Positions 6,066-60,073 of a DNA stretch of 64,000 bases are shown piece by piece. The DNA is from Halosolutus amylolyticus. GTDB taxonomy: Archaea; Halobacteriota; Halobacteria; Halobacteriales; Natrialbaceae. Below the pieces are notes generated by a model. That model was not told where the DNA came from. It was given only the letters and a program-made list of their open reading frames with translations, and did not search any database. A program made the position numbers and the translations under genes. The DNA is taken from positions 1 to 64,000 of the forward strand of contig NZ_JALIQP010000001.1 of the NCBI RefSeq assembly GCF_023566055.1, given 5' to 3'. Numbering within the stretch: position 1 is the stretch's first letter; each line of letters starts with the position of its first letter.

Positions 6066-6205
6066 GTGCCGTTTGTTTCTATCACTCCGACTAGTGCGTG
6101 TATACCCTACATTTCTCCCTGACTATAGTTTCGAGGTACCGTCGCTCTCCGACCCGCGTCGAGCGCTGGGAGAGTCGGCGTCGCTGGATCGCCGTCGCCG
6201 CCCAG

Positions 6206-6210
6206 TATAT
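6206..6210 (+). promoter_or_regulatory. TATA-like box for the NDH-2-like gene
   Basis: The sequence agtatatgtaac lies about 28 bp upstream of the ATG at 6236. That spacing would place the transcription start at or just before the start codon, giving a leaderless mRNA. Confidence 0.55.
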
Positions 6211-6235
6211 GTAACTCGAGCCACTCTGTGAACCT

Positions 6236-7381: not shown

Positions 7382-7417
7382 TTCGTCCCGATCGACGGTC
7401 CGGGTGAGGACGAGACA

Positions 7418-7446
7418 CAATAAATTAGGGATGAGACGGTCGAGCA
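7418..7446 (+). promoter_or_regulatory. TATA-like box and possible RBS for the 29-residue peptide gene
   Basis: An AT-rich box (acaataaatta, about 7418-7428) lies roughly 24 bp before the ATG at 7447, the spacing of a leaderless haloarchaeal transcript. A purine stretch gggatgaga overlaps the leader. Confidence 0.45.
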
Positions 7447-8869: not shown

Positions 8870-9070
8870 ATGACGCAGCGACACGACCGCAAGCCGTTTG
8901 CCAGTTCCCTGTTCGTGACCGGCGTTACGATGGTCCTCGCGAGCGTCGCCACGGCCGTCTGGATGTTCAGACTCGGCGACATCGTCACCGCGCTGGGGCT
9001 CGGACTGCTCGTCGTCGCCGGACTGCTACTGGCGGGGATCGGGCTTCCCCCCGAGGCGGCCGCCAACTGA
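8870..9070 (+). CDS. small two-span membrane protein
   Basis: A 66-residue protein (70 if the in-frame GTG at 8858 is used). After a short basic N-terminus come two hydrophobic segments, SLFVTGVTMVLASVATAVWMF and ALGLGLLVVAGLLLAGIGL. It is divergent from FEN-1. It looks like the small haloarchaeal membrane proteins of unknown function. Confidence 0.6.
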   Translation: MTQRHDRKPFASSLFVTGVTMVLASVATAVWMFRLGDIVTALGLGLLVVAGLLLAGIGLPPEAAAN

Positions 9071-9247
9071 ACCTCGCGTGGTACTGTCTCCGTTCCTGCG
9101 AGACACGCACGCCACTCGATCAGGCGACCCGAAGCACCCTTCCAGGAGCGATCGCAGTCGTCTCTCCTCGCCACTGTCGGGGTGTGAGCCCCTGAGAGTG
9201 GATCCGACGGACGCAACCGACACTTGGGTCGCCGGGTCCGGACGACG

Positions 9248-9823
9248 TCAGACCGGACACCGCTCGCGGAGTCGTTCGACGGCACGGCCGATGCGCGACG
9301 CCGCGTCCTGCAGACCCCGCCGTCCCGCTTTCGCGCGCCGGGCGAGCGCGAACCGGACCCCGTCGTAGGTGTTGCCGAGCAGGTTTCCGAAGTAGATCGC
9401 GCGGACGAACGCGAGGACGTCGGCCGCCGTCTCGCGGCCGTAGGCGTCTCGCAACGCCATCACTGCCTCCCGGCCCGGCTTCTCGTCCGTTTCCGCGTAC
9501 TGCTGTGCGAACAGGAGCGCGGGCAGTTCGGTGTCGTCGACGGCCGCGTCGACGTCGTTCTCAAGGATCCGGGCGATCGTCTCCCCGTCGACGCCGGTCT
9601 CCCGTGCGAGATCGGTGTGATACCGGGTACAGTACTGGCAGTCGTTGACCGCCGTGACCGCGAGCATGATCTTCTCCGCGAACTGATCGCTGACTCTGTC
9701 GGCACGCTTTGCCCGCACGAGTCGTGGGACGTTATGCACGAATCGAACAATACCGGTGGCCAACGATCGGATCGTGAAGGTTTTCTTCTGGAAGTCGCCT
9801 GGAGATCTCCCTGTAGCGCTCAT
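9248..9823 (-). CDS. carboxymuconolactone decarboxylase / AhpD-like protein
   Basis: A 191-residue all-helical protein of the AhpD superfamily. The redox pair CQYCTRYH (residues ~62-69) is the CxxC-x3-H signature of alkylhydroperoxidase-like proteins, which reduce peroxides through a cysteine pair. The basic C-terminus (RRAKAGRRGL) is longer than usual. It stands alone, and its substrate cannot be told from sequence. Confidence 0.85.
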   Translation of the reverse strand: MSATGRSPGDFQKKTFTIRSLATGIVRFVHNVPRLVRAKRADRVSDQFAEKIMLAVTAVNDCQYCTRYHTDLARETGVDGETIARILENDVDAAVDDTELPALLFAQQYAETDEKPGREAVMALRDAYGRETAADVLAFVRAIYFGNLLGNTYDGVRFALARRAKAGRRGLQDAASRIGRAVERLRERCPV

Positions 9824-9972
9824 CTAGATATCGGCTTTTCGGGACACCCAGTAAGTCGATTTCGATCCCCTGCTCTGGCTGGCCACGTTCCTTCCTGGAC
9901 GCCAGCCGGCTCGTTCCCAGTTCCTTATCTTGCTCTTTGTGGGCAATTCTGGTCGGTAGGTAAGCGCCCGAG

Positions 9973-10521
9973 TCATCCGTCGTGTGACTCGATCGCCGGT
10001 GGCTCACTGTGACGTCGCGAGTCGAGAAACGTCTCCTCCTCGGCGGAGAGATCCCGATCGCGGAACTCGTCGAGGCCGGCCTGGTAGCGCCCGCGGCTCG
10101 GCGGTCCCTGGCCCGGTTCGTACGCGAGAACGAGTTCGGCGATCCCCGTCTGCTCCCCGGTGTACTCGAATCCCGTTCGATACAGGGCCTCGTAGGCGAA
10201 CGGGTTGTTGACGGCGATCCGGAGCCGATCGTAGCCCCGCTCGAGGGCCCGATCGCGAACCCTGCCGAGTAGCTCTGGCCCGATTCCCTCGCCTCGGCGA
10301 TCGTGCGCGACCGTGACGTATCGGAGCCACAGGGTGTCGGGGTCGGTACGGTCCTCGTTGAACGCGACGGCGGCGACGACCGGCTCGTCGGCCTGGTCGT
10401 CGTCCCGCGCGACGGCCTTCCCCGTGTTCGTCATCACGAACTTGCCGGCGTAGCTGAACCGCTCGTGATCGAGTCGCAGTTTCGGCCCGTCCGGCGGCCA
10501 CCCCAGTAGCTCGTACTCCAC
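9973..10521 (-). CDS. GNAT family N-acetyltransferase
   Basis: A 182-residue acetyl-CoA-dependent acetyltransferase. The fold is seen in WLRYVTVAHDRRGEGIGPELL, the motif A acetyl-CoA pyrophosphate loop, followed by LRIAVNNPFAYEALYRTGF. The frame opens further upstream, but that part is Arg-rich shadow sequence. The GTG at 10521 (reading MEYELLGWPPDGP) is the natural start. The tail SRGRYQAGLDEFRDRDLSAEE is probably a separate helix. The substrate is unknown. Confidence 0.85.
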   Translation of the reverse strand: MEYELLGWPPDGPKLRLDHERFSYAGKFVMTNTGKAVARDDDQADEPVVAAVAFNEDRTDPDTLWLRYVTVAHDRRGEGIGPELLGRVRDRALERGYDRLRIAVNNPFAYEALYRTGFEYTGEQTGIAELVLAYEPGQGPPSRGRYQAGLDEFRDRDLSAEEETFLDSRRHSEPPAIESHDG

Positions 10522-10722
10522 GGTCGGCGTTCGAGCCCCAGCCACTACAATTCTCCTGCCGAGCGTCCTGTCGGGTTCCGGAACTACCGCCACGCTCCGA
10601 TCCGCGTTCGGCGGGCCCTCGCAGTCGCGACCCCCGATCGAGCGTTCGAGACGCCGCTCTCGCGCTTTCGATGGCGAATGCAGGGACAGTAGTGATCCAT
10701 CCCAGTCGCGTAAATCGTGCCA

Positions 10723-11088
10723 ATGAGTGGCAAAGATGGGGCCGGGGAGGCGGACCCCGACCGGGCGACGATCGACCACGGGTTCGTCGCCCTCCGGAAC
10801 CAGGAGCGGCGGTACGCGCTCTACTTCCTGCTGGAACAGGAGACCGCCTCGGTCGCGGAACTCGCCGACGTCGTCGTCGGCTGGATGGGGGCGTCGACCA
10901 ACGGCATGGCGACGCGCCGGGAGCGCGATCGGGCGTACCGGACGCTGGTCCACCAGCACGTACCGGTCCTGGTCGAGTTCGGAATCGTCGACTACGACGG
11001 CGGAACGAAGACAGTCTCGATGACGCCCTGCCCTGACGCGATCCGCGAGTTCGTTCACCTGGCCTGTCTCGCCGAAACCGGAGCGTAA
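10723..11088 (+). CDS. winged-helix-like haloarchaeal protein (DUF7344-type)
   Basis: A 121-residue protein. Its core NQERRYALYFLLEQETASVAELADVV followed by VLVEFGIVDYDGGTKTVSMT looks like a winged-helix domain: helix, recognition helix and beta-hairpin. Similar short proteins are common in haloarchaea, often beside sensory genes. It is followed 17 bp later by the DICT-domain gene, so the two are probably cotranscribed and this may be a DNA-binding partner of the sensor. Confidence 0.65.
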   Translation: MSGKDGAGEADPDRATIDHGFVALRNQERRYALYFLLEQETASVAELADVVVGWMGASTNGMATRRERDRAYRTLVHQHVPVLVEFGIVDYDGGTKTVSMTPCPDAIREFVHLACLAETGA

Positions 11089-11105
11089 TCGTCACGAGCC
11101 CTATA

Positions 11106-11819
11106 ATGACTCTCTCCGACGTGTTCGACCGACTGGAACACCCTCGCCGGACGATCACCGTGTACGCGAGCACGCCGCAACCGGACGTCACGGCACAGTT
11201 CGAACCGAGAGGGGTCACGGTCCGCCACTGCTCGCTCCCCGAGGAGACGACCCAGGGATTTCTCGTTATCAGGGACGCGGACGGGTTCGCCGGTGCGATC
11301 GGCCTCGAGGAAGCCCGCGACTTCCTCGAACCCCCAGTCTACCGGCCCTGGGACGAGGCGTTCGTCGACGCCCAGTACCGGACGCTACTCGAGGTCCTCG
11401 ACGCGACGCTGTGGCACTCGCTCGATCGCCGACAGCTGCTGGCGACGACCCGGGAAATCGAGGACCGGGCGTGGCGAGTCGGCCGCGGGACCTTGCGGGT
11501 CGGGTTCCAGCGCCTCTCCGCGATGCGGGCACAGCTTCCGGTGTACGCACGGATGGCCGACGAAACGGCGCTCGGGATCCACGTCTACGGCAGCGACGAC
11601 TGGAACCCGCCGACACTGCCCGGCGTGACGATCCACACCGACCCGAGCGACGAACTCGCGCAGTTCTGGTTCCTCGCGTTCGACGGCGGTCCGGACGATC
11701 GGCAGGCCTGCGGGTTGCTCGCCGAGGAGCGCGATTCCGGTTCGTTCGCCGGGTTCTGGACCTACGACGCCGATCTCGTCGACGAGATCGCAACCCGGGC
11801 TCGCGAGACCGCCGACTGA
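11106..11819 (+). CDS. DICT sensory domain protein
   Basis: A 237-residue soluble protein. The N-terminal TLSDVFDRLEHPRRTITVYA and the later DAQYRTLLEVLDATLWHSLDRRQLL...IEDRAWRVGRGTLRVGFQ resemble DICT domains, which occur with two-component and diguanylate cyclase proteins and are thought to sense light or small ligands. There is no attached output domain. It follows the winged-helix-like gene by 17 bp, suggesting a two-gene signalling unit. Confidence 0.7.
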   Translation: MTLSDVFDRLEHPRRTITVYASTPQPDVTAQFEPRGVTVRHCSLPEETTQGFLVIRDADGFAGAIGLEEARDFLEPPVYRPWDEAFVDAQYRTLLEVLDATLWHSLDRRQLLATTREIEDRAWRVGRGTLRVGFQRLSAMRAQLPVYARMADETALGIHVYGSDDWNPPTLPGVTIHTDPSDELAQFWFLAFDGGPDDRQACGLLAEERDSGSFAGFWTYDADLVDEIATRARETAD

Positions 11820-13212: not shown

Positions 13213-13291
13213 ACGGATTGCTGTACTGATGTCCCGGCGCAACCGCAACCGAGTCGTGATTGGGCCGGGCTGACGCACAGCAAGTCCGCAT
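13213..13291. repeat. palindromic repeat element, copy 1
   Basis: An imperfect inverted repeat of ~79 bp. The left arm begins cggattgctgtactgatg and the right arm, read from the other strand, begins cggacttgctgtgcgtca. It shares both arm types with copies at 25821-25902 and 44563-44644. The right end abuts the TGA of the pilC gene (13291-13293), and the element lies between pilC and the next minus-strand gene. It is probably a REP/MITE-like element or a structured 3' end. Confidence 0.8.
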
Positions 13292-15369
13292 CACACGACG
13301 ACGGCGAACAGGAGGACCGAGAGGCCGACGAGCACGACCGCGTGTTTCGCGCCGGCCCGGACGTCGCCGGTACTCAACTGGCCGGCGATCAGCCCGGAGA
13401 GCAGCCCCTGAATGAGCGTGGCGTGGTAGAACAGCGTGCTGTAGGCGGCGGTTTCGCCCTCGGAGAGGCCGCCCAGTCCATCAATATCGCCGCCGGCACC
13501 GCTCGCCGTCTCGACCGTTTCCGCCGGAAGGTTCGGCAGGAGATAGGCGCCCAGTACGGTGATGATAAACAGGAAGACCAGAAACGAGACGTAGACGACG
13601 ATCGTGTACTCGACCATCGCCTGCCGGCGCTCGCGTTTGAGTCGCCGATCGGCCGCCGCCTGGCGGGCCGCGATCCGGAGCACCGTCGCGAGGTTCCCGC
13701 TCGCGTTCATCGCCTCGGTGAGCAGCGTGACAACGCGGGACGTCGAGCGCGTGCGGACGCGTCGTCCGAAGCGGCGGAGCGCCGTCTGGATGTCGGCACC
13801 CCACTGGACGTCGGCCCAGACCCGATCGAGTTCGCGCCCGAGCGGCCCCAGGTCGGAGTCCCGGATGTGGTCGACCGCCGAGATCATCGGCATCCCGGCC
13901 TCGTTGACGCTGGCGAGTCGATCGAGCAGGTCGGGAATCGCGGCTTCGATGGCGTCGATCCGACGACGGTGGCGTTCGTAGAAGCCGGCGAACACCGCGA
14001 GGACGAACAGGAGGCAGAGCGCGACGACGTCGTCGATGGCCGTCACGTCGAACCCGGCCCCGGCGACCGCGGCGGGAAGCCGGGAGAGAACCGCCGCGAG
14101 CGCGATCGGCACGGTGACGACGAGCGTCAGGCCGGGTCGATCGAGAAACGTTCGGAGCGGGTCCCCGATCCGATCGCGAACCCCGTCGAGCAACCGGTAG
14201 TAGCGGAGGCGATCGACGTTCTCTCGCTGGCGGGCGTGTGAGACGCCGCCGTCGGTCGCGGCCGCCGTCGGGACGGCGCTCGTCGGGGTCTGAGGGGTCG
14301 ACTCGTCGTCGGTCGCCTGCCCCGGATCGATCGAGTCGGTGATCATACTCAGGTAGATTACGAACGCGAGGTTCCCGAAGGGGAGGATCAGGTAGATCAG
14401 GACCTGGAGCGGATCGAGCGTGTCACCGACCGCGATTCCGATGATCACCAGGATGGTGATCAGGAAGAGCGGACCCGCGACGAGTACCGTCACGTAGGCC
14501 TCGGCGAGCGTGGCGAGCAACTCGAGCATCTGCTCTTGCTGGGACTCGGACTCCTCCTGGTAGTCGTGGTACTGGCGCTCGAGAAAGTCAGAGAGGCTGT
14601 GACCGCTCTGGAGGACGCTGACGAGGTTCTCGGAGAACTCGCGAAACTGGGGGCTCGGACTGCGCCGCCCCATCTCCTGGACGGCGGAGATGACGTCCAT
14701 GCCGAAGGTGTCCATGTTCCGGACCGCGACCTCGAACTCCGCGGCCGTCGCCCCGTAGGTGCCACGCTGTGCGGCGACGATCCGGATCACCTTCGGGAAC
14801 TCCATCCCGCTTCGCGAGAGGGCGTAGATGAACGCGACCGTCGACGGGAGTCCCGATTCGATCCGTCTGGCACGGGCGTCGGCGGCGTAGGTCGGGTACC
14901 ACCACCGGAGCCAGTACGTGCCGCCGCCGGCGATCGCGCCGAGCGTGAGACAGGACCCAAGCAACAGGACGAACAGTTCGGCGAGCGACAGCGCCGGCAC
15001 GCCCCCGAGGTTCGCGAGGACGGAGAGCGCGCTCGGCAGCGCTTCGCGCATGGTCTCGGGATCGATCGCGAGCACGAGCAGGCCGGCCCAGATGACGTAG
15101 ATGCCGAAGATCGCGCCGGCGACGCCGAGTAGCCCGGCGTACAGCAACGTCCGGGCGCCGTACTCCCGGTAGGTCGTCGGGAAGTGGGCAGCCCGGAGGG
15201 CGGACTGGCGGTGGGGGTGTTCGCTCCGGAACTCGTCGACGTAGCCCCCGAACACCTGCACTGCCGCCCGCGTGAGGACGCGATCGACCCGGTCGCTGAC
15301 CCTCGCGACGACGAGCGGGGAACAGCACAGAAGTGCGATCACCAGCGGGACGAAGTTCGAGAGCGCCAC
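13291..15369 (-). CDS. pilC: type IV pilus / type II secretion inner-membrane protein PilC (GspF/TadC family, duplicated)
   Basis: A 692-residue multi-span membrane platform protein of an archaeal type IV pilus system. Two GspF-type halves are visible: the first cytosolic domain ESGLPSTVAFIYALSRSGMEFPKV with SGHSLSDFLERQYHDYQ, and a second IPDLLDRLASVNEAGMPM with RIAARQAAADRRLKRE. Each is followed by paired hydrophobic helices. The GTG start at 15369 lies 6 bp after the pilB stop, so the pair is an operon. No prepilin gene is seen nearby. The gene ends directly in a palindromic repeat. Confidence 0.9.
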   Translation of the reverse strand: MALSNFVPLVIALLCCSPLVVARVSDRVDRVLTRAAVQVFGGYVDEFRSEHPHRQSALRAAHFPTTYREYGARTLLYAGLLGVAGAIFGIYVIWAGLLVLAIDPETMREALPSALSVLANLGGVPALSLAELFVLLLGSCLTLGAIAGGGTYWLRWWYPTYAADARARRIESGLPSTVAFIYALSRSGMEFPKVIRIVAAQRGTYGATAAEFEVAVRNMDTFGMDVISAVQEMGRRSPSPQFREFSENLVSVLQSGHSLSDFLERQYHDYQEESESQQEQMLELLATLAEAYVTVLVAGPLFLITILVIIGIAVGDTLDPLQVLIYLILPFGNLAFVIYLSMITDSIDPGQATDDESTPQTPTSAVPTAAATDGGVSHARQRENVDRLRYYRLLDGVRDRIGDPLRTFLDRPGLTLVVTVPIALAAVLSRLPAAVAGAGFDVTAIDDVVALCLLFVLAVFAGFYERHRRRIDAIEAAIPDLLDRLASVNEAGMPMISAVDHIRDSDLGPLGRELDRVWADVQWGADIQTALRRFGRRVRTRSTSRVVTLLTEAMNASGNLATVLRIAARQAAADRRLKRERRQAMVEYTIVVYVSFLVFLFIITVLGAYLLPNLPAETVETASGAGGDIDGLGGLSEGETAAYSTLFYHATLIQGLLSGLIAGQLSTGDVRAGAKHAVVLVGLSVLLFAVVV

Positions 15370-15375
15370 CGGTGG

Positions 15376-17244
15376 TCACCCCGTCTCGAGCGTGCCGTCG
15401 CCGTTCCCGCCGGTCGCCGCGCCGTCGCTGCTCCTTTCGGTCGCCGCGCCGTCGCCGTCCCGGATATGCCCCGCGTTCCGGTTCGACGGCGCATCGTCGG
15501 TTCGAGCGCGCCGACCGCTCGCGACGCGACGGTCGCCGTCCCGGTCGTCCGACTCGTCCGCGTCGATCGCCTCCAGCACGCTGTCCCTGTCGGTGTAGTA
15601 CTCGTTGACGAGCGCGGTGAACCGTCGGTAGTCGGCGATGTCGTTCTCCCGGAGGTACTCGAGGAACCGCTCTCGGTGCTCGAGTTCGGTGAGCAACTCC
15701 CGCTGGGACCAGCCGCGTTCGTCGCGGATCGCTTCGAGGACGTGACTGCCGCTGCCCCGGAAGCTGTCGGTCTCGCCGTCCCACGTGTACGCGGTGGAGT
15801 AGTCGAGTTCGCCGGTCCGCTGGTCGATCCCTTCGATTTCGGCCAGTACCTTGTTCCGACGGACGCGACCGTCCTCGAGCCGGGTGAGCGTCTGGACGGA
15901 GAGGATGTCGAGGCTCTGGACCATCGATCGGGGGACGTTTATCGGCTCGTTCTCCAGCCGATTGATGACCGTCTGGACCGAGTCGGCGTGCATCGTCGAG
16001 TAGGTCGTGTGGCCGGTGTTCATCGCCTGGAAGAGGGTCATCGCCTCCTCGCCGCGGACCTCGCCGACGACGATGTACTCGGGGCGGTGCCTGAGCGCGG
16101 ATCGGAGCAGGTCGTACATCGTGACGTCTTTTCCCTCGTGGATGCGCTCCCGGGTGACCGAGGAGAGCCAGTTGTCGTGGTAGAGTTCGAGTTCGCGAGT
16201 GTCCTCGATCGTCAGCACCTTCGATCGGGGCGGGATGAACATGGAAATGGCGTTCATGCTCGTGGTCTTGCCCGACGCCGTGCCGCCGGCGAAGATGAGG
16301 CTCTTGTTGTGTTCGATCGCGAGCCAGAGGTAGGCCATCTGTTCGACGCTGAAGGTGCCGTACTCCAGCAGATCGACGGGCGTGAACGGCTCGTCCGCGT
16401 ACTTGCGGACCGTAAAGGCCGATCCCCGCGGGGTCACCTCCTCCCCGAGCGCGAGTTCGGCACGGGAGCCGTCGGGCAGGGTCGTCTCGACCATGGGATC
16501 GCCGATCGAGATGTGCCGCCCCGAGTGCTGGGCAAGCCGGACGACGAACCGATCGAGGTCCTCCTTCGCGAAGGAGACGTTCGTCTCGACGTCGGTGTAC
16601 TCGTCGTGGTAGACGAAGATCGGGAGGTCGTAGCCGTCACAGGAGACGTCCTCGACGTGGGGATCGTGCATGATCGGCTCGAGTCGACCGTACCCCCGGA
16701 AGTCCCGATGCACGTAGTAGAACAGCCGGTAGAACGTCGACATATCGATCTCCGCACCGTACCGCTCGAGGTACTCGTGGATCGTCTCCAGCAACAGCGT
16801 CTCGACGTCGTCGGTCCCGTCCTCGCGGTACAGCAGGGGGTCCCGGACGTCGTCCAGCAGGGTCTCGAGCAGGGCCCCCTCGTCCTCGCGCAACGTCGGT
16901 TCGACGGTGTAGTACCGGTACTGGTTCGTCTCGGGATCGTCCCGGATCGAGACGAACGAAAACGGCGCGTCGACCCAGTAGCGATCGATCTCGTCGAACT
17001 CCGAGGGGCCGTCGAACTCGAGCAGGGGGCCGTGGGTGGCCGGATCGTAACTCGTGACCTCGATGGTCGACCCCTGGAGGACCTCGACGACGCGTCGGAT
17101 CGTCCGGCGACCCCGCTCGATCGTCGACGAGAACCGTCCTCCGCTGTCGCCCCTCGCGGTCCCGGTGGACGAGGAACCGTCCGCGTCGGGATCGTCGGCC
17201 GATCGAGCGGGGTCGCTCGCGTCTGACGGGTGTGGGTCTACCAT
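15376..17244 (-). CDS. pilB: type IV pilus assembly ATPase PilB (type II/IV secretion ATPase)
   Basis: A 622-residue hexameric motor ATPase that drives pilin assembly. The C-terminal domain has Walker A FAGGTASGKTTSMNAI, an Asp box (LTIEDTRELEL), Walker B YIVVGEVRGEEAMTL and the His box TGHTTYSTMHADS. The N-terminal ~60 residues are acidic, Ser/Asp-rich and probably disordered. A long C-terminal acidic/Arg tail follows the domain. The ATG at 17244 (MVDPHPSDASD) is preferred over an upstream in-frame start. It is the first gene of the pilB-pilC operon. Confidence 0.93.
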   Translation of the reverse strand: MVDPHPSDASDPARSADDPDADGSSSTGTARGDSGGRFSSTIERGRRTIRRVVEVLQGSTIEVTSYDPATHGPLLEFDGPSEFDEIDRYWVDAPFSFVSIRDDPETNQYRYYTVEPTLREDEGALLETLLDDVRDPLLYREDGTDDVETLLLETIHEYLERYGAEIDMSTFYRLFYYVHRDFRGYGRLEPIMHDPHVEDVSCDGYDLPIFVYHDEYTDVETNVSFAKEDLDRFVVRLAQHSGRHISIGDPMVETTLPDGSRAELALGEEVTPRGSAFTVRKYADEPFTPVDLLEYGTFSVEQMAYLWLAIEHNKSLIFAGGTASGKTTSMNAISMFIPPRSKVLTIEDTRELELYHDNWLSSVTRERIHEGKDVTMYDLLRSALRHRPEYIVVGEVRGEEAMTLFQAMNTGHTTYSTMHADSVQTVINRLENEPINVPRSMVQSLDILSVQTLTRLEDGRVRRNKVLAEIEGIDQRTGELDYSTAYTWDGETDSFRGSGSHVLEAIRDERGWSQRELLTELEHRERFLEYLRENDIADYRRFTALVNEYYTDRDSVLEAIDADESDDRDGDRRVASGRRARTDDAPSNRNAGHIRDGDGAATERSSDGAATGGNGDGTLETG

Positions 17245-17998: not shown

Positions 17999-19174
17999 AT
18001 GGCAAACGGACAACTGCTCACGACGGCGACCGACGAAACGTCTCCAGAACCCACGAAAGCGGCGTCCACGGCGGACGACGTAGTTCTCGAACTGGACGAC
18101 GTCGCCAAACAGTACGGGAGCGAAGCCGTCATCTCGGACCTCTCGCTGACCGTCCGGGACGGCGAGATTCTCACGCTGCTCGGTCCCTCCGGGTGCGGCA
18201 AGACCACGACGCTCCGACTCATCGCCGGCCTCGAGGAACCTAACGCCGGCCGAATTCGACTCCAGAACGATTCCGTCGCGGGGAACGGGCGGTTCGTCCC
18301 GCCCGAGGACCGCGGTGTCGGCGTCGTCTTTCAGGAGTTCGCGCTCTTCCCTCACCTCACCGCCCGCGAGAACGTCGCGTTCGGCCTTCAGGACTGGGAC
18401 GAGTCCGCCCGCGACGCCCGGGTCGACGACCTCCTCGACCTCGTCGGCCTCGCGGACCACGGCGAGAACTACCCCGACGAACTCTCCGGCGGCCAGCAAC
18501 AGCGGATCGCCCTCGCCCGATCGCTCGCGCCGGAACCGGAGATGCTCCTGCTCGACGAACCGTTCTCGAACTTAGACGTCGACCTGCGCGTCGAGATGCG
18601 CGAGGAAGTCCGCCGGATCATCAAGGAGGCGGGCGTCACCGCCATCTCCGTCACGCACGACCAGGAGGAGGCGCTGTCGATCTCCGATCGGGTCGCCGTA
18701 ATGAACGAGGGGCGGATCGAACAGGTCGACACGCCGGAACAGGTGTTCCAGCAGCCGGAGTCGCGGTTCGTCGCGGGCTTTCTCGGCCACGCGAGTTTCC
18801 TCTCCGGCGCGGTCCAGGGCGACCACGTCGACACCGCGCTCGGGCGGGTCCTCCGCGACAACGTCAACGGCCTCGCCCAGGAGTACGACGGCACCGACAT
18901 CGATCTCCTGGTTCGGCCGGACGACGTGACGGCCTTCCCCGCCGACGAGACGGGCGAGGAGGCGGACGGAACCGTCGTCTACCGCCGATACCTGGGTCCG
19001 ACCGTCCTCTACCGGGTCGAACTCGACACCGGCGAGACGATCGAGTGCATGCACAACCACTCCGATCGGATCGACCTCGACGAGCGGGTCCGCGTTCGCG
19101 TCACCGCGGATCACGAACTCGCGTGGTTCCCCGCTGGCCAGCGCAACAGGGCCCCCTCGGTCGCGGCGGACTGA
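17999..19174 (+). CDS. ABC transporter ATP-binding protein, Fe(III)/FbpC type
   Basis: A 391-residue cytosolic ATPase of the CUT1/FbpC/PotA group. Walker A GPSGCGKTT is at ~residues 62-70, then the Q-loop segment VPPEDRGVGVVFQEFALFPH, signature LSGGQQQR, Walker B MLLLDEPFSNLD and switch VTHDQEEA. A C-terminal TOBE-type domain follows (LLVRPDDVTAFPAD...VVYRRYLGPTVLYRVEL). The Q-loop wording fits Fe(3+) importers. No permease or binding protein is adjacent, so it serves genes elsewhere. An iron-box-like operator precedes it. Confidence 0.85.
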   Translation: MANGQLLTTATDETSPEPTKAASTADDVVLELDDVAKQYGSEAVISDLSLTVRDGEILTLLGPSGCGKTTTLRLIAGLEEPNAGRIRLQNDSVAGNGRFVPPEDRGVGVVFQEFALFPHLTARENVAFGLQDWDESARDARVDDLLDLVGLADHGENYPDELSGGQQQRIALARSLAPEPEMLLLDEPFSNLDVDLRVEMREEVRRIIKEAGVTAISVTHDQEEALSISDRVAVMNEGRIEQVDTPEQVFQQPESRFVAGFLGHASFLSGAVQGDHVDTALGRVLRDNVNGLAQEYDGTDIDLLVRPDDVTAFPADETGEEADGTVVYRRYLGPTVLYRVELDTGETIECMHNHSDRIDLDERVRVRVTADHELAWFPAGQRNRAPSVAAD

Positions 19175-31432: not shown

Positions 31433-32275
31433 TCAGCCCCGGCGAAGCGCCGTGGCCCAGTTCTCGAAATCGAGGCGCTCGGACAGCGACCAGCGGCCCA
31501 CGAGGAGGGACGCGAAGTCGACGCTGAGGTAGGCCAGTCCGATCCCCGCGACGACGTCGATCGCCCAGTGGATGCCGAGGTACATCGTCGAGATGGCGAC
31601 GCAGATCGCGAGCGCGATCGCGACGACGGCCCACTTCGGGTAGACTGCTCGCGTCCGGTACGCGAGGAACGCGACCGTCGCCGACAGCGACGTGTGGAGC
31701 GACGGGAAGACGTTCGTGTTGCGGTTGACCTGTCGCGTGAGGTGCTGGTACTCGGGGTAGGTGTCGTACAGCAACGCCTGGACGAGTTCGGGCATCATGT
31801 TTCGCGGCCCATATGCAATGACGAACGTGTACAGCAGGAGGCCGATCGCGTAGTTGAGCGTGTACGCCGTCAGCAGTTCCCGGAGCGGCCTGGTGTTCGA
31901 GAGCGCGAAGTACGCGACCAGCGGGAAGACGAGCAGGAAGACGTAGCCGTAGATGTAGACGAACGAGAAAAACGCGGTCAGTGCCGGCGTCGCGAACGTC
32001 TGGAGCCAGGGGATGAACTCCCCCTCGATATCGAAGATGGCCCCGGTCAGGTTCCACTCGATGATCCACGAGAGGTCGGGGACGACCTGCCTGGCGACGC
32101 TGTTGAAAAGCAGGACGATCGCGAGCACGACCGTGATCGGGACGGCCGCACGGACGCGGGCTCGCCACTCCGCGCGGGTATCCCGGAGTCGATACCGGCC
32201 GACGAAGACCGCGATTCCGACGAGGATCATCGCCGTCACCGCCACGACGAGCTGTGTGAGGACCTGGACGAGCAT
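31433..32275 (-). CDS. PAP2-superfamily membrane protein (Aur1-like PAP2_3), cassette copy 1
   Basis: A 280-residue integral membrane enzyme with about six spans. Motifs AYGPRN, FPSLHTSLSAT and YLGIHWAIDVV carry the conserved His/Asp of PAP2_3 phosphatases and inositol-phosphoceramide-synthase-like transferases. The active site should face outside. Its ATG overlaps the stop of the upstream binding-protein gene by one base (TGATG), so translation is coupled. It is paralogous to the protein at 34123-34998. It may dephosphorylate or transfer a lipid head group. Confidence 0.85.
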   Translation of the reverse strand: MLVQVLTQLVVAVTAMILVGIAVFVGRYRLRDTRAEWRARVRAAVPITVVLAIVLLFNSVARQVVPDLSWIIEWNLTGAIFDIEGEFIPWLQTFATPALTAFFSFVYIYGYVFLLVFPLVAYFALSNTRPLRELLTAYTLNYAIGLLLYTFVIAYGPRNMMPELVQALLYDTYPEYQHLTRQVNRNTNVFPSLHTSLSATVAFLAYRTRAVYPKWAVVAIALAICVAISTMYLGIHWAIDVVAGIGLAYLSVDFASLLVGRWSLSERLDFENWATALRRG

Positions 32276-34029
32276 CAGTGTCTCACCCGGAGGCGGCCCT
32301 CCTCGCCGTACCTGAAGCCGGCCTCCTCGAACGCCGATCGGGCCGTCGCGACGTCGACTTCCCCGTCGGATCCGAGAAACGGCGTCTCGGGATCCGATCC
32401 GTTCCACGCGAGGGAATCGGGCGTCCACTCGTCGGTCACCGGGGTCGCGGTCGGCGTCGCGTAGCCGTCGAACACCTCGTCGACGAGCCACGCCTTGTCG
32501 ATCAGCGACGCGACGACGCGCCGGAACCGCGGGTTGGAGAACGGTGCTTTCCGCGCGTTGAACCCGAGGTGGTAGACGGTCCACGACGGCGACTCGAGCA
32601 GGCGCGTTTCGGGCGACTCCTCGACGGCGTCGAGGACGTACGTTTCGATCGTATCGCTCGTGACGTCCGCCGCGTCGGTCTGGACGAGTTCAATCGCCGA
32701 CGTGCTCCGGGGATCGATCTGGATGCGCATCGTCTCGACGGTCGGGGCAGGGAGATCGACACCCGCTCGCCGCGTGAAGTGGTCGTCGAACCGTGCCAGG
32801 GTCACGTAGTCGCGCTCGGCGCGGGTGTCGAACTGGAACGGCCCGCTCCCGATCGGCGGCCAGTTGTCCGTGACCACGGCCTCGGTCGTCCCCTGTGCGA
32901 CCCGGACGCCGGGAACGTTCGCGGCGTCCGATCGGGGTTTCCAGACGTGTTTCGGCAGGATCGGGACCGTAAGCGCACGCTCCGCCACCGGCTGGTTCGT
33001 CCCGACGGTGAACTCGAGTCGGGTTCGATCCACGGCCTCGACGTCGTCGATCGCGCTGACGAGGCCCCGGTACCGCGGCGACGGCGACGACAGCTCGCTC
33101 GCGCCGAGGGAGGTGTCGTCGAGGAATCGGTAGGTAAAGGCCACGTCGTCGGCGGTCAGTGACTCGCCGTCGTGGAACCGACAGTCATCCCGGAGCGTTA
33201 CCGCGAGCGTTTCGTCGTCCCACTCCCAGGCGTCGGCCAGCCACGGCACGAGGTCGGCGTCGACCTCGGCCGCCAGCGAATCGTACAGCAGGTCGACGAA
33301 CGTCCCCCGCTCGCGGTACTCGGCCATCAGCGGGTTCGCGTTCTCGGAGGGACGGGCGTCGGTGTGGACGGCCCGGAGCCGATCGACGTCCGCTGCCGGA
33401 TCGAGACCGAGATAGCCACGCCCCGTCGCGGGGTGGCCCTCGCCCCAGCCGTCGAACCGATCGGTCCGGACGAGACGGTGTTCCTCGGGGACGCAGATCG
33501 GGACGAACGGCTGTTCGCGGACGAACGCCTCGAGCAGGTCCGTCACCGCGTCCGTCCGCTCGTCCGGGTCGACCGTCCGCTGGGCCTCGAGGAGGTCGTC
33601 GACGACGAGGTTCGTGTACCCGAACGGGTTCTGCCAGCCGGACTCGTCGGCGTACACCGAGTGAAGCGCCTCGTAGAGAAAGTCGGGATCGGTGCCGCCG
33701 GGGTGGTTGCCGACGTAGACGTCGAAGTCGTGGTTGAGCAGGACCGCCCGGAGGAACTCCTCGTTCGAGCGCATCTCGATCGAGACGTCGATGCCGACGG
33801 CCTCGAACACGGCGGCGAGTTCCCGTGCGAGCCGGATGCTCTCCCGGTCCCCGTCGGCGGGGAGGGTCGTGATCGTGAGCGACAGCGGGTCGAGATCGTC
33901 CCGGTTGACGATGCTACGGACCTGGCGGACACAGCCGCTGGTCGCGACCGTCACTCCACCCGTCGTCGCCAGCAGCGCTCGTCGGCTGAGTTGCCCGCCG
34001 TCGTTCCGGGCGGGCCGTCCCTCGGTCAT
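32275..34029 (-). CDS. ABC-type solute-binding lipoprotein, family 5 (peptide/nickel type), cassette copy 1
   Basis: A 584-residue exported binding protein. The N-terminus has a twin-arginine signal and lipobox (SRRALLATTGGVTVATSGC). The mature protein is a family-5 binding domain (PLSLTITTLPADGDRESIRL...DDCRFHDGESLTADDVAFTY). The ATG at 34029 is chosen because a TATA box at 34061-34066 lies at the right distance; the GTG at 34047 would leave almost no space. No permease or ATPase is nearby. It is coupled to the PAP2 gene downstream, and a paralogue follows at 34998. Confidence 0.85.
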   Translation of the reverse strand: MTEGRPARNDGGQLSRRALLATTGGVTVATSGCVRQVRSIVNRDDLDPLSLTITTLPADGDRESIRLARELAAVFEAVGIDVSIEMRSNEEFLRAVLLNHDFDVYVGNHPGGTDPDFLYEALHSVYADESGWQNPFGYTNLVVDDLLEAQRTVDPDERTDAVTDLLEAFVREQPFVPICVPEEHRLVRTDRFDGWGEGHPATGRGYLGLDPAADVDRLRAVHTDARPSENANPLMAEYRERGTFVDLLYDSLAAEVDADLVPWLADAWEWDDETLAVTLRDDCRFHDGESLTADDVAFTYRFLDDTSLGASELSSPSPRYRGLVSAIDDVEAVDRTRLEFTVGTNQPVAERALTVPILPKHVWKPRSDAANVPGVRVAQGTTEAVVTDNWPPIGSGPFQFDTRAERDYVTLARFDDHFTRRAGVDLPAPTVETMRIQIDPRSTSAIELVQTDAADVTSDTIETYVLDAVEESPETRLLESPSWTVYHLGFNARKAPFSNPRFRRVVASLIDKAWLVDEVFDGYATPTATPVTDEWTPDSLAWNGSDPETPFLGSDGEVDVATARSAFEEAGFRYGEEGRLRVRH

Positions 34030-34060
34030 TTCGGTCAGTAGTTGCACTTCGAAGGTGGTG

Positions 34061-34077
34061 ATATAACAGTATTGTGT
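34061..34077 (-). promoter_or_regulatory. promoter of SBP-PAP2 cassette copy 1
   Basis: The minus strand reads acacaatactgttatat. Fifteen of its 17 bases are shared with the promoter of the second cassette (36870-36886), and the distance from the TATA box to the ATG is the same to within a base or so. The conserved block probably includes BRE, TATA and possibly a regulator site. Confidence 0.65.
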
Positions 34078-34122
34078 TGCCTTGTGGCGGGATCGATCGG
34101 CCGATCCGCCTCCGCGGCGGTT

Positions 34123-34998
34123 TCAGGTCCGATCGGTCAGCCGGGCGGTCGCCGCCGTCCAGATGGCGGCGAGCCTGGCCCGAAGCCGCGCCAGCAACCC
34201 CCGATCGACGAGCCGATCGGCCAGGACGACCGAGAGGGTCGCGAGCACGAGTCCGCCGACGACGTCGATCGCCCAGTGGATGCCGAGGTACATCGTCGAG
34301 ATGACGACGCTGACCGCGAGGAGGAGCGCGACGGGGAACCACCGCCCGTACTCGTCCCGGGTCCGGTAGGCGAAGATGGCGACCGTCGTGGCGAGCGAGG
34401 TGTGCAACGAGGGGAAGACGTTGACGTTCCGATTGACCTCCGTGGTGAGATAGATGTACTGCGGGCTGTTGTCGTACAGCATCGTCTCGGAGACCAGTGC
34501 GGGGATGTAATTGCGGGGGCCGTACGCGAAGATCAGGATGTAGAGCGTGACGCCGATCGCGTAGTTGAACGAGTAGGCCGCCAGCAGCTGACGGAACGGC
34601 CGCGTATCCGACAGCGCGAAGTACGCGACGATGGGAAAGATCAGCAAGAACGTGTAGCCGTAGACGTACACGAGCGAGAAGTACGTCGTCAGCTCCGGGA
34701 AGGCGATGTCTTGGAAGATCAGGACGAACTCTCCCTCGACTTTCCAGTACAGCCAGGACACGTGAATCCCGATCTCCCTGGAGATCGACGGCCCTACCTG
34801 TCGCATCACGCGATTCAGCCCCAGCACGACGAGTAACACGGCGATGATCGGGGCGCTCGTCCGTAGCCGGGACCACCACTCACGGCGGGTCGTTACGAGC
34901 CGATCGCGTCCGATGAAGACGACGATCGAGAGCACCAGCATGACCGCGACGGCGGCGAGGACCCGCATCAACACCTCGGCGAGTTCTTCGGCGACCAT
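34123..34998 (-). CDS. PAP2-superfamily membrane protein (Aur1-like PAP2_3), cassette copy 2
   Basis: A 291-residue membrane enzyme, paralogous to 31433-32275. The same motifs are present: AYGPRN, FPSLHTSLATT and YLGIHWAIDVV, with about six spans. The ATG at 34998 overlaps the upstream stop as TGATG, exactly as in copy 1. The extra C-terminal Arg/Ala-rich tail (LLARLRARLAAIWTA) is specific to this copy. Confidence 0.85.
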   Translation of the reverse strand: MVAEELAEVLMRVLAAVAVMLVLSIVVFIGRDRLVTTRREWWSRLRTSAPIIAVLLVVLGLNRVMRQVGPSISREIGIHVSWLYWKVEGEFVLIFQDIAFPELTTYFSLVYVYGYTFLLIFPIVAYFALSDTRPFRQLLAAYSFNYAIGVTLYILIFAYGPRNYIPALVSETMLYDNSPQYIYLTTEVNRNVNVFPSLHTSLATTVAIFAYRTRDEYGRWFPVALLLAVSVVISTMYLGIHWAIDVVGGLVLATLSVVLADRLVDRGLLARLRARLAAIWTAATARLTDRT

Positions 34999-36839
34999 CA
35001 GTACTGTTTCAGTAACCGACCCGCGTCGTCGTACCGGTAGCCGGTCACCTCGAGGAACCGATCTCGCGCCGCCTCGACGTCGAGTTCGCCCTCGGAGCCG
35101 ACGAACGGGACCACGGGATCGACGTCGTCTTCGTCGGTCCACGCGAGGCTGTGGTCGTCCGGAACCCACTCGCCAGTCACCGGCGTGGCGAGCGGCGAGG
35201 CGTAGCCGTCGAACACGGTGTCGACCAGGTACTGCTTGTCGATCAGGCGAGCGATCGCGCGACGGACGTTGGGGTTGCCGAACGGGGACCGTTGCGCGTT
35301 GAATCCGACGTGGTAGAACATCCGCGAGGGGGACTCGATCCGAGTCACGCCGGGCTCGTCGGGGATGTTCGCGATCGAACTGGCACCGAGCATCGTGGCC
35401 GTGACGTCGGCGCCGCCACTCAGGACGCGTTCGACGGAGGACTTGCTGCCGGGATCGACGGTGAACCGGATCTCCTCGACGGTCGGTTCAGGGAGGTCGA
35501 CGTCGGCCCGACGCGTGAAGTGGTCGTCGAACCGTTCGAGCGTGAGGTGCTCGCGATTCTCGTGGTCCGCGTACCGGTACGGTCCGCTTCCGGTCGGCGG
35601 GATGTTGTTCATCGTGACGAGCCCCCACTCGGCCTGGGGCGCCTCGAAGTCGTCACCATCGGCACGATCGATGACCTGATCGCGCCAGCGGTGTTCCGGC
35701 AGGATCGGGGCGGTGAGCGCCCGTTCCCCGACCTCCGTTCCGGTCGATGTCGTGATCGTCAGCTGGTGGGGGCCGTCGATCTCGACCCTGTCGATCGCCG
35801 AGGCGTGGCTCCGGTACCGCGGTGCCGGCGACGGGACGTCGGCCAGCCCCAGCGACGTGTCCGCGAGGAACTCGTAGGTGAACTTGACGTCCGTGGCGGT
35901 GACCTCCTCGCGTTCGTCCTCCCAGGCGGGGTCGTCCGCGTCCTCGGAGTCACCGTTCGGGTCGTGGAAGAAACAGTCCTCTCGAAGCGTGACCGACGCT
36001 GTCGCGGACCCGTCCTCGACCTCGATCCACTCGACGTCTTCGGCCAGCCACGGAATCAGTTCGCCCTCGCGTTCGGTCAACAGCGAGTCGTACAGCAGGT
36101 CGATCGTCGTCCCGCGCTCGCGAAGCGTCGCCGAGAGCGGGTTGACGTTCCGGGACATGCGCGAGTCGGTAACCAGGGCGTGGAGTTGCTCGGCGTCCTC
36201 CTGCGGGTCGAGCCCCAGGTAGCCCGAGCGCGTCGCGAGGTGGCCGTCCTCCCAGCCATCGAATCGATCGGATCTGGCGACCCGGATCTCGTCCGGGACG
36301 CAGATCGGGACGAACGGCTGTCGGCGTGCGATCGCCTCGAGCAGGTCCGTCACTACCTGTTTCCGCTCTTTACCGTCGATCCGCCGCTGGTTCTCGAGGA
36401 GGTCGTCGACGCGGGGGTCCGAGAATCTGAACGGGTTCTGCCAGCCGTCCTCGTTCGCGTTCGCGTACGCGGAGTGGAGGGCCTCGTAGAGGAAGTCGGG
36501 ATCGTAGTCGGCGGGGTGGCGGCCGACGTAGACGTCGAAATCGTGCTCGATCAGCACGGTTTCCAGAAACTCCGATCGGGACCGCATCTCGACGGAGACG
36601 TCGATTCCGACCGCCTCGAGGTTCTCCTGGAGGTGGGTGGCGATCTGGACGTTCTCCCTGTCGCCGTCCGCGGGGACCGTCAGGATGGAGAGCGAGAATT
36701 GTTTCGCTCCACCGTCGTCGACGACGCTTCGAACGCGGTCGATACAGCCGCTGGTGGAGAGGGCGAGGCCGGCTGCGCCGGCGGCCAGGACCGATCGTCG
36801 ACTGACGCCGTCAACGGGGGTGCTTGGATTTCGATTCAT
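34998..36839 (-). CDS. ABC-type solute-binding lipoprotein, family 5, cassette copy 2
   Basis: A 613-residue exported binding protein and paralogue of 32275-34029. The signal SRRSVLAAGAAGLALSTSGC ends in a lipobox. Shared blocks include EAVGIDVSVEMRS, DPDFLYEALHSAYA and PFVPICVPDE. An acidic insertion (~DPNGDSEDADDPAWEDE) distinguishes it. The ATG at 36839 is supported by a TATA box ~33 bp upstream; the longer start lies on that box. It is coupled to the PAP2 gene downstream. No transporter subunits are nearby. Confidence 0.85.
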   Translation of the reverse strand: MNRNPSTPVDGVSRRSVLAAGAAGLALSTSGCIDRVRSVVDDGGAKQFSLSILTVPADGDRENVQIATHLQENLEAVGIDVSVEMRSRSEFLETVLIEHDFDVYVGRHPADYDPDFLYEALHSAYANANEDGWQNPFRFSDPRVDDLLENQRRIDGKERKQVVTDLLEAIARRQPFVPICVPDEIRVARSDRFDGWEDGHLATRSGYLGLDPQEDAEQLHALVTDSRMSRNVNPLSATLRERGTTIDLLYDSLLTEREGELIPWLAEDVEWIEVEDGSATASVTLREDCFFHDPNGDSEDADDPAWEDEREEVTATDVKFTYEFLADTSLGLADVPSPAPRYRSHASAIDRVEIDGPHQLTITTSTGTEVGERALTAPILPEHRWRDQVIDRADGDDFEAPQAEWGLVTMNNIPPTGSGPYRYADHENREHLTLERFDDHFTRRADVDLPEPTVEEIRFTVDPGSKSSVERVLSGGADVTATMLGASSIANIPDEPGVTRIESPSRMFYHVGFNAQRSPFGNPNVRRAIARLIDKQYLVDTVFDGYASPLATPVTGEWVPDDHSLAWTDEDDVDPVVPFVGSEGELDVEAARDRFLEVTGYRYDDAGRLLKQY

Positions 36840-36869
36840 TCCAGTGTACCTCACTGATTCGGATTTGAT

Positions 36870-36886
36870 ATATAACAATTTTGTGT
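36870..36886 (-). promoter_or_regulatory. promoter of SBP-PAP2 cassette copy 2
   Basis: The minus strand reads acacaaaattgttatat, almost identical to the promoter of copy 1, with the same spacing to its ATG. The conserved promoter implies common regulation. Confidence 0.65.
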
Positions 36887-57973: not shown

Positions 57974-60073
57974 TCATTCGGGTCTGCCGACCCGATCCGA
58001 TGACGACGATCGATCGCCGATCGGATTCGAAACCGGACTGGTCGCGTACTCGTGGCGCTTCCCCTTGAGTCGCATCGTCGTGAGCGCCTTGTGGGTCGCT
58101 GGCTCAGCGAACAGGGCTGTTTCGTCTCGATCGACCCGCTCCATCGAAACGACTCTCGACCCGCGGAGCTCCTCGAAGGCCGATCGGCAGTGATCGCGAA
58201 CGATCGCCCAGCACTCGCGGGCGTCGACCGGTGTGGACTCGACAAGCGCGACGAACAGTTCAGTCAGATGATTCTGGAACAGCGCGTAGAACAGCTTCCA
58301 GTGGAGGTCCCGCTCGTCGTCGGCTTCGATATCGGAGTCGGGATAGATCTCTATCGAGAGGCCCCGTTCTGCGAGTCGCTCTTCGTGGACGCGGATCCCA
58401 CCGAAATCCCGGACGAGGGTCCCGGTCGGCCGACCGTCATCGAAGACCACGTAACTGTTCTGGAGGTGCGATTCGAGCGCGATCCCGTACGCGGAGAGCA
58501 GACGGAGCTGGCCGGTGACGACGGCCGAGACGTAGGCGTCGACGAAGGCCCGCGTTGCGTCCGCGAGATCGGTCGCGTCGATCGCGTCCGCGTACCGGTC
58601 GACGGCCTCACGAACGAGCGGGTCCCCCGTCGCGGGCGAGTCGGCGACGAGCACGGCCGCTGGGACGACCCGCCCGTCGGTACCGACGAGCCGATGGGAT
58701 CGGGGGTTCGATCGAACCAGTCCGGACAGGTGTCGCACGTCGTCGTAGGAGTCGCCGTCGACGTGGGGACCGCCGGGCGGATAGTAACAGGCGGCGGCGG
58801 GTTCCGAGAGGAAGCCGAGCCCGGAGAACGCCGCCGAATCGGCGATCTCGCGGAGCAGGCGCGTCACCCGCGGGCCGTTGTGGACCGCCTGCGGGGAGAC
58901 CGTCCGCTCGACGTTCGTCAACTGGACGCCGATCGCGAGTTTGCAGTGGAGCGGGGCGGTGTGAGCACTGTCTTCGGCTCCCGCGTACGGGGTGACCGTG
59001 CGGAGATTGAGCAGCGGCGTCGCCGACCGGACGAAATCCGGTATCGGGACGACTGTCCCGTCCGCACGCTGGCTCTCGTACCGGTCGGGGAGCACGTGCT
59101 GGAACTGCCACGGGTGGACCGGGATTACCGCGTACTCGCTGGCGTCGGTCGGCACCGTTCGCGAAACCGCGTCGGCGAGTCCGTCGAACGTCGTATAGAG
59201 CCGATCGGTCAGCGATCGGTCGTCTATCGACGTCTCCCGCACCCGTTCGGTGTGGACGGCGACGAAGCGAACGTCGATCGAGCCGGTGAACTCGGGTGCA
59301 TACGCCACTCCTGCAGTCTCGGTCATCCCGCGGCGGATCTTCGCGCTCGGGTGAAGCGGGTGGCCGTCGGTGACGAGGCGTTCGAGTGCGGCGGGAGCGT
59401 CGGCGGCGCGGAGCCGCCGGGTCACGTCCTCGGGGTCGGAGCCGGGGCCGAGAACAGTCCCGTCAGAGCCGAACGAACGGCGGTGATCGAATCGGGCCAC
59501 CCGGGCCAGCGCGAGGTTCGCAGTGCTCTCGGCCAGTTCCCGCTCGATCCGATCGGCCTGCTCGACGTCGCGAAACGCCCCCGATCGCCGCAGGAGCGCC
59601 GCGAGGTCGAGCGGGTGGTCGAGGTCGTCGATCCCGGCCACCGTCAGCCGCCGGATCGGCTCGGCGAGCCGTAGCCGACCGTAGCCGTACTTCCCCTCGA
59701 TTGAGGCGTACACGACCGTGGCAGCTTCCGGAAGGGACAACAGCGCGACCCGATCGCAGCCGTCGGGGACCGGGAGAGAGCCGTCCGTCCAGTTCGCATC
59801 GTCGAGCGTCGGCACCATGCGCCGCGCAATCGTCGTGGCGGCGGTCGGCCGGCACGTCTCGGGGTCGGGAAGCGCGTCGGGAGAACCACGCACTAGACCA
59901 CGGAACAGCCGTCGAATGCCGATCGATCGGGCTGTGGGGAGAACTGACAGGTACGCGGTTTCGGGCGGGTCCGCGAGGTCGTTCGCGTCGGCATACCGCG
60001 TCGCAACGGCGAACGCGTCCCGTTCGGCGGCGGTTCGTAACTGCACGTCGACCGGGCCTGTGACGTCCGTCAT
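57974..60073 (-). CDS. IucA/IucC family NRPS-independent siderophore synthetase
   Basis: A 699-residue cytosolic ATP-dependent synthetase that joins a carboxylate to an amine or alcohol to make hydroxamate-type siderophores. Family motifs are in order: DGHPLHPSAKIRRGM, VIPVHPWQFQ, KLAIGVQLTNVERTVS, ESHLQNSYVVFDD, LVRDFGGIRVHEE and WKLFYALFQNHL. Complete length. No decarboxylase, acetylase or monooxygenase partners are in the window, so it is isolated. No iron-box-like palindrome is seen upstream; it may be read through from the upstream genes. Confidence 0.9.
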   Translation of the reverse strand: MTDVTGPVDVQLRTAAERDAFAVATRYADANDLADPPETAYLSVLPTARSIGIRRLFRGLVRGSPDALPDPETCRPTAATTIARRMVPTLDDANWTDGSLPVPDGCDRVALLSLPEAATVVYASIEGKYGYGRLRLAEPIRRLTVAGIDDLDHPLDLAALLRRSGAFRDVEQADRIERELAESTANLALARVARFDHRRSFGSDGTVLGPGSDPEDVTRRLRAADAPAALERLVTDGHPLHPSAKIRRGMTETAGVAYAPEFTGSIDVRFVAVHTERVRETSIDDRSLTDRLYTTFDGLADAVSRTVPTDASEYAVIPVHPWQFQHVLPDRYESQRADGTVVPIPDFVRSATPLLNLRTVTPYAGAEDSAHTAPLHCKLAIGVQLTNVERTVSPQAVHNGPRVTRLLREIADSAAFSGLGFLSEPAAACYYPPGGPHVDGDSYDDVRHLSGLVRSNPRSHRLVGTDGRVVPAAVLVADSPATGDPLVREAVDRYADAIDATDLADATRAFVDAYVSAVVTGQLRLLSAYGIALESHLQNSYVVFDDGRPTGTLVRDFGGIRVHEERLAERGLSIEIYPDSDIEADDERDLHWKLFYALFQNHLTELFVALVESTPVDARECWAIVRDHCRSAFEELRGSRVVSMERVDRDETALFAEPATHKALTTMRLKGKRHEYATSPVSNPIGDRSSSSDRVGRPE

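Follow-up and report, generated by a model that had tools for sequence, protein, structure and literature searches.

Two tandem SBP-PAP2_3 cassettes in Halosolutus amylolyticus

Two cassettes, each made up of a gene for a solute-binding protein (SBP) and a gene for a PAP2_3 membrane enzyme, lie on the minus strand between positions 31433 and 36839 of the window, by which we mean the whole 64,000-nt stretch of the Halosolutus amylolyticus contig NZ_JALIQP010000001.1 that was analysed. Their genes and features are as follows:

34998-36839, minus strand: SBP1, 613 aa; Tat lipoprotein, circularly permuted family-5 solute-binding protein
34123-34998, minus strand: PAP2-1, 291 aa; PAP2_3 (Aur1/IPC-synthase-like) membrane enzyme
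32275-34029, minus strand: SBP2, 584 aa; second permuted Tat-lipoprotein SBP
31433-32275, minus strand: PAP2-2, 280 aa; second PAP2_3 enzyme
34996-35000, minus strand: TGATG stop/start overlap of SBP1 and PAP2-1, as read from the sequence
32273-32277, minus strand: TGATG stop/start overlap of SBP2 and PAP2-2, as read from the sequence
36871-36885, minus strand: promoter box of cassette 1, CACAAAATTGTTATA; TATA overlapping a near-palindromic ACAATAYTGT element
34062-34076, minus strand: promoter box of cassette 2, CACAATACTGTTATA; near-palindrome overlapping a TATA box

The initial annotation had described the locus as a tandem duplication of a family-5 SBP and a PAP2_3 enzyme, which is borne out by the Pfam matches and by the identities between the cassettes (53% for the SBPs, 56% for the enzymes). 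SBP_bac_5 (PF00496) matches the window SBPs at 1e-44 and 4.5e-50, each in two stretches, and PAP2_3 (PF14378) matches the enzymes at 1.4e-18 and 2e-19 (70.6 and 67.9 bits against a gathering cut-off of 27). Both SBPs feature a twin-arginine motif and a lipobox cysteine at the N-terminus; the SBP1 residues R14, R15, G31, and C32 are invariant among 51 relatives. At both junctions the ATG of the enzyme gene overlaps the SBP stop codon as previously noted, with TGA and ATG having one A in common. A third SBP-PAP2_3 cassette is present on contig C6 of the same genome (L054, 7422-11631), where it adjoins a divergent CetZ tubulin-like gene; cassettes at two other loci (L162 and L165) likewise have a CetZ neighbour.

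The promoter boxes of the two cassettes, ACACAATACTGTTATAT and ACACAAAATTGTTATAT, are identical in 15 of 17 bases, in line with the initial annotation, which had also reported identical TATA-ATG spacing; here the distances from box to ATG, 31 and 30 nt, are one base apart. The box is found upstream of most cassettes in the family with tandem cassettes as well as upstream of some cassettes of another family, and the whole genome contains just five sites at up to two mismatches, two of them being those of the window cassettes. Given this recurrence and the small number of genomic sites, the box does not reflect chance, and its near-palindromic element is a possible operator for some regulator. 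Its use as a regulon marker was dropped, as the three other genomic near-matches do not lie in any obviously related place.

Near the window cassettes, we saw no transporter of the Opp/Dpp type. Taken literally, the earlier statement that the window holds neither permease nor ATPase is incorrect, as it encodes MFS and xanthine/uracil permeases along with an ABC ATPase of the sugar/iron type (17999-19174). Elsewhere in the window, we noted a type IV pilus-like PilB3/T2SSF pair (13291-17244) and an IucA/IucC siderophore synthetase homologue (57974-60073).

Circular permutation, distribution, and pairing of the SBPs

The window SBPs do not show the canonical lobe order of family 5, a point absent from the initial annotation. 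Judged by their alignments, SBP1 and SBP2 are circularly permuted family-5 SBPs, in which the C-terminal lobe comes first, immediately after the Tat/lipobox signal. In SBP1 the two parts are arranged as follows:

36207-36707, minus strand: SBP1 residues about 45-211; N-terminal here, equivalent by homology to the C-lobe in normal family-5 SBPs
35001-36206, minus strand: SBP1 residues 212-613; C-terminal here, equivalent to the N-lobe plus hinge in normal SBPs

The C-terminal end of SBP1 is formed by the motif GYRYDDAGRLLKQY, which is interior in normal SBPs. Once past the signal and lipobox, the permuted chain opens with the first C-lobe strand, and it ends at GY-[RK]Y-DDxGRLL; this cut site is common to all sampled relatives. 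In phmmer searches against the PDB, SBP1 residues 415-551 align with residues 198-326 of 5u4o, and residues 59-191 with 371-501. The same inversion is seen against a canonical SBP from the organism's own genome (L055), whose residues 2-325 correspond to SBP1 181-554 and residues 350-522 to SBP1 34-211. A profile built from the permuted proteins matches all eight canonical SBPs tested in reversed order, and along the relatives from two further genomes (G098 and G068), the C-terminal part of the Pfam SBP_bac_5 profile matches ahead of the rest (in G098, profile positions 287-363 precede 3-284). The AlphaFold2 model of SBP1 has a mean pLDDT of 88.8, with 448 of 613 residues at pLDDT >=90. Foldseek, whose alignments are sequential, matches this model to family-5 SBPs at a TM of about 0.4-0.5 across some 400 columns; values of this size are to be expected with one lobe out of order.

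Relatives were counted in 391 sampled genomes of the class Halobacteria (86 genera) where they were full-length, collinear, and at E <= 1e-30; being collinear over their full length, they are therefore permuted alike. SBP relatives defined in this way occur in 263 genomes and 68 genera (264 and 69 with the second query), while the phylum sample outside the class yielded canonical-type partial matches only. Carriers include Natronorubrum bangense, with the same tandem arrangement as in the window, Haloferax gibbonsii, and Haloarcula sp. JP-L23. Paralogous cassettes number two to three per genome. A tandem arrangement is usual in the window genome's own family, and a single cassette is usual in other families.

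The search of haloarchaeal genomes for SBP_bac_5-PAP2_3 pairs, as proposed in the initial annotation, revealed near-obligate pairing across Halobacteria: a PAP2_3 gene lies directly downstream on the same strand for 67 of the 68 SBPs sampled at 58 loci. The two genes overlap by 1 or 4 nt in 33 of these 67 pairs, and in 51 their spacing is within 10 nt. The pair is thus neither rare nor random; a rare and random pair would have counted against the proposed coupling. Nor do nearly all homologous SBPs sit beside ABC transporters, this placement being confined to a sister clade of permuted SBPs (see below). The single SBP without a PAP2_3 partner (L067) is encoded by a gene that overlaps an upstream gene for a YdjM-family membrane protein. 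This SBP is nested within the PAP2-linked clade, and its locus (9014-11292) also has arylsulfotransferase (ASST)-like and GT-C-like genes alongside, which may reflect a partner swap. YdjM was rejected as a general alternative partner, as a directly overlapping YdjM gene was found in this one case only.

The partners also appear to have stayed together. At eight of nine tandem loci, each SBP and its own PAP2_3 enzyme resemble one and the same window copy, and the SBP and PAP2_3 distance matrices of the 67 pairs correlate with r=0.81, to which shared species history contributes in part. With canonical bacterial SBPs as outgroups, the PAP2-linked SBPs form one clade (support 100) at the end of a long branch (1.23 changes per site), next to a clade of permuted SBPs from ABC operons that includes bacterial members. 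A single branch (SH-aLRT 99) separates the SBP-linked PAP2_3 enzymes from their solo paralogs. In these trees the SBP-PAP2_3 pairing has a single origin. Because the trees are quick ones with several weak forks and long branches, we infer, as the simplest history only, that the permutation arose once, that the permuted SBPs served ABC import before a single recruitment to PAP2_3, and that the partners were then inherited together vertically and stayed faithful to each other.

The permuted family-5 SBPs of the sister type occur in Alphaproteobacteria (L184 5965-7563, L185 5932-7542, and the unannotated L186 at about 6001-7431) and in haloarchaea (L187, L188, L166, and L168), mostly within complete Opp/Dpp-type ABC operons. 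These bacterial and archaeal proteins apparently represent an unrecognised subclass. Solo PAP2_3 paralogs were noted beside a large helicase-like gene, without an SBP, in several genomes (L193-L198 and L207).

Within or directly beside the cassettes, we found no permease or ATPase genes other than those of an unrelated canonical operon at one locus (L060). With regard to transporter INDEPENDENCE, the OppB-type N-domain (PF19300) was present in 137 of 145 class genomes and absent from 8, of which three (G086, G098, and G068; completeness about 99%) carry the cassette in intact form. In these three genomes the cassette SBP is the sole SBP_bac_5 protein. An oligo_HPY ATPase was not found in G086 or G098, and G068 has a sub-threshold match with an internal stop; two other genomes (G058 and G002) scored positive. 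The absence test combined PF19300 with SBP_bac_5 and oligo_HPY because PF19300 alone is unsafe: G002 has Opp/Dpp operons yet gives no match. As the cassette SBP is the only family-5 SBP, and neither an OppB permease nor a functional oligo_HPY ATPase is encoded, it cannot serve an Opp/Dpp importer in these organisms; on this gene-content evidence, the SBP is independent of Opp/Dpp transporters in all three. Its use by a non-Opp transporter is still conceivable, since each of them has general BPD_transp_1 permeases that belong to other import families. Taken together, the near-obligate pairing, the single clades, and the Opp/Dpp-free genomes strongly support the central proposal of the initial annotation, namely an SBP coupled to a PAP2_3 enzyme and not to a transporter.

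The PAP2_3 enzyme and its gene neighbourhood

PAP2-1 contains the motifs GPRN, NVFPSLHTS, and STMYLGIHWxxD. Across 41 enzymes, the GPR triplet, H199, H241, and D245 are invariant, and there is little or no variation in GPR, NVFPSLHxS, and TxxLxIHWxxDVxxG. Positively charged loops lie on the side opposite to the catalytic motifs, so that the His-His-Asp site formed by C2 and C3 is apparently extracellular. The classical KX6RP and SRX5HX3D motifs are not found; in their place the family has GPR(N) and (S/A)TMYLGIHWxxD, altered C1 and C3 motifs that fit an Aur1-like branch over the classical phosphatases. The model of PAP2-1 has a pLDDT of 92.5, and its best structural matches in Foldseek are IPC synthase (9vj4) and Aur1-Kei1 (9ivc), the match to Aur1 being moderate (TM 0.51, E 3e-3). 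The Haloarcula JP-L23 protein is named inositol phosphorylceramide synthase in GenBank; we know of no ceramide in Archaea. Solo PAP2_3 paralogs have GPR and PSLH motifs like those of the linked enzymes, so the fold can exist without an SBP.

At 13 of 62 loci (L133, L137, L142, L145, L149, L157, L158, L181, L183, and others), the cassette is flanked by an ASST-like gene together with one for a GT-C/PMT_2-like membrane protein, the ASST and PMT_2 assignments being weak-to-moderate profile matches. A further membrane protein, c5, is encoded at 14 of 62 loci, mostly directly upstream of the cassette (for example, L153 6005-7360, L136 2633-3970, L131 6097-7362, and L181 3453-4922). It features an invariant HEHWDWFRLRHTV motif in its N-terminal part and a predominantly hydrophobic C-terminal half, and has no match in Pfam or the PDB. 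The ASST/GT-C pair or c5 is present at 22 of 62 loci taken together, while the tandem cassettes in the family of the window's genome lack such neighbours; GT-C-like proteins are also encoded near two solo PAP2_3 genes. These neighbours suggest a chemistry of glycolipids or glycans outside the cytoplasm.

Proposed function and comparison with known systems

We give about even chances to the view that each cassette encodes a unit for phosphoryl transfer on surface lipids or lipid carriers, with the SBP as its dedicated ligand-binding subunit. The two proteins would work at the outer face of the haloarchaeal membrane, where the Tat-exported, lipid-anchored permuted SBP would capture a small solute or a lipid head group and, instead of feeding an ABC permease, would hand this ligand to the PAP2_3 enzyme or gate it. 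With a membrane lipid or a polyprenyl-phosphate carrier as its substrate, the enzyme would use its outward His-His-Asp site to transfer a phosphoryl or head group, or else to catalyse hydrolysis. We infer here a physical SBP-PAP2_3 complex, ligand presentation, the chemistry itself, and a role in surface glycolipids or glycans. More tentative is the full version, in which a binding-protein-dependent surface lipid or lipid-carrier phosphotransferase of the Aur1-like PAP2_3 type, its permuted SBP recruited once from an ABC background as the obligate supplier of ligand, edits or builds glycolipid or sulfolipid head groups of the outer leaflet.

The SBP might instead act as a sensor whose lobes open and close with ligand and thereby switch PAP2_3, so that membrane lipids would be modified in response to a cue from outside the cell. 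It is an established principle that SBPs can act together with membrane proteins other than transporters, such as chemoreceptors, sensor kinases, and TRAP systems, the pairing data are identical to those for delivery of a ligand, and the paralogous cassettes within a genome would fit different ligands feeding one reaction. Neither the SBP nor the enzyme carries a signalling domain, however, and we regard a sensor as the less likely of the two roles, although it is the most serious competitor to delivery.

Scavenging of phosphate or organophosphate is improbable. Here, the SBP would catch a phosphorylated solute, PAP2_3 would remove the phosphate, and another system would import it, a scheme consistent with the phosphatases among PAP2 enzymes and with the AccA-type family-5 SBPs, fold matches of the SBP whose ligands are phosphodiester opines. 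Yet neither phosphate transporters nor Pho-type genes are recurrent neighbours of the cassette, and the enzyme falls into the Aur1-like membrane branch, in which the known members have lipid substrates.

We attach slightly less weight still to an SBP that no longer binds a ligand and serves as a structural or chaperone subunit of PAP2_3, much as Kei1 does for yeast Aur1. The long branch leading to the PAP2-linked SBPs, the requirement of Aur1 for a non-enzymatic partner (as in the 9ivc complex), and the one SBP with a YdjM-family protein in place of PAP2_3 would agree with such a role. However, both lobes are retained and confidently modelled, the invariant SBP residues are more numerous than a scaffold would need, and Kei1 is unrelated to SBPs. 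Just as doubtful is an orphan receptor for an Opp/Dpp importer encoded elsewhere, with PAP2_3 merely co-transcribed: the sister SBPs do lie in complete ABC operons and most haloarchaea have Opp/Dpp permeases somewhere, but the three genomes without a functional Opp/Dpp system or another family-5 SBP, and the ancient, near-obligate pairing, speak against it.

The SBP and PAP2_3 families are both known; our literature searches, which covered open-licence papers, returned no description of permuted family-5 SBPs, of SBP-PAP2 pairs in archaea, or of any SBP coupled to a PAP2 lipid enzyme, so that both the permuted class and the SBP-PAP2_3 unit are without description there. The permuted proteins show that circular permutation has occurred naturally in a binding-protein family of very large size, and since ABC-linked and enzyme-linked branches both exist, it can be asked which SBP surfaces dock the permease and which were reused. 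Automatic annotation of the cassette SBPs as 'ABC transporter substrate-binding protein' misleads counts of haloarchaeal transporters. If the proposed phosphoryl-transfer unit is real, the cassettes offer a defined, genetically simple system for the chemistry of haloarchaeal surface lipids and glycans.

Among known systems, the family-5 SBPs (Opp/Dpp/Nik, cluster C, PF00496) share with the cassette SBPs homology in both lobes, the Tat/lipobox anchor, and the predicted two-lobe fold, but the lobe order is permuted in the latter and the partner gene encodes PAP2_3 instead of a permease and an ATPase. The permuted SBPs of ABC operons (for example, in Halalkalicoccus jeotgali plasmid 2, Maritalea, and Nitratireductor) have the same breakpoint and signal-peptide position as the PAP2-linked SBPs, yet belong to complete transporter operons and a separate clade. 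With the Aur1/IPC synthase/sphingomyelin synthase branch (PF14378), the cassette enzyme shares the PAP2_3 domain and the PSLH and STMYxxxHxxxD motifs; it differs in being archaeal and in having an SBP in place of Kei1. As for inositol phosphorylceramide synthase itself, which moves a head group from a phospholipid onto ceramide, the resemblance is one of fold only. The PgpB/LpxE/undecaprenyl-diphosphate phosphatases (PF01569) belong to the same superfamily and likewise have an outward-facing active site (PgpB profile match 1e-6), whereas the cassette enzyme has GPR as its C1 motif and Thr for Arg in C3. To our knowledge, no non-transport SBP partnership involves a PAP2 lipid enzyme. Similar to the SBPs of chemoreceptors, sensor kinases, and TRAP systems, the cassette SBP would be a binding protein employed outside ABC import, and lipid-modifying membrane enzymes would, if this is true, join the known clients of solute-binding proteins.
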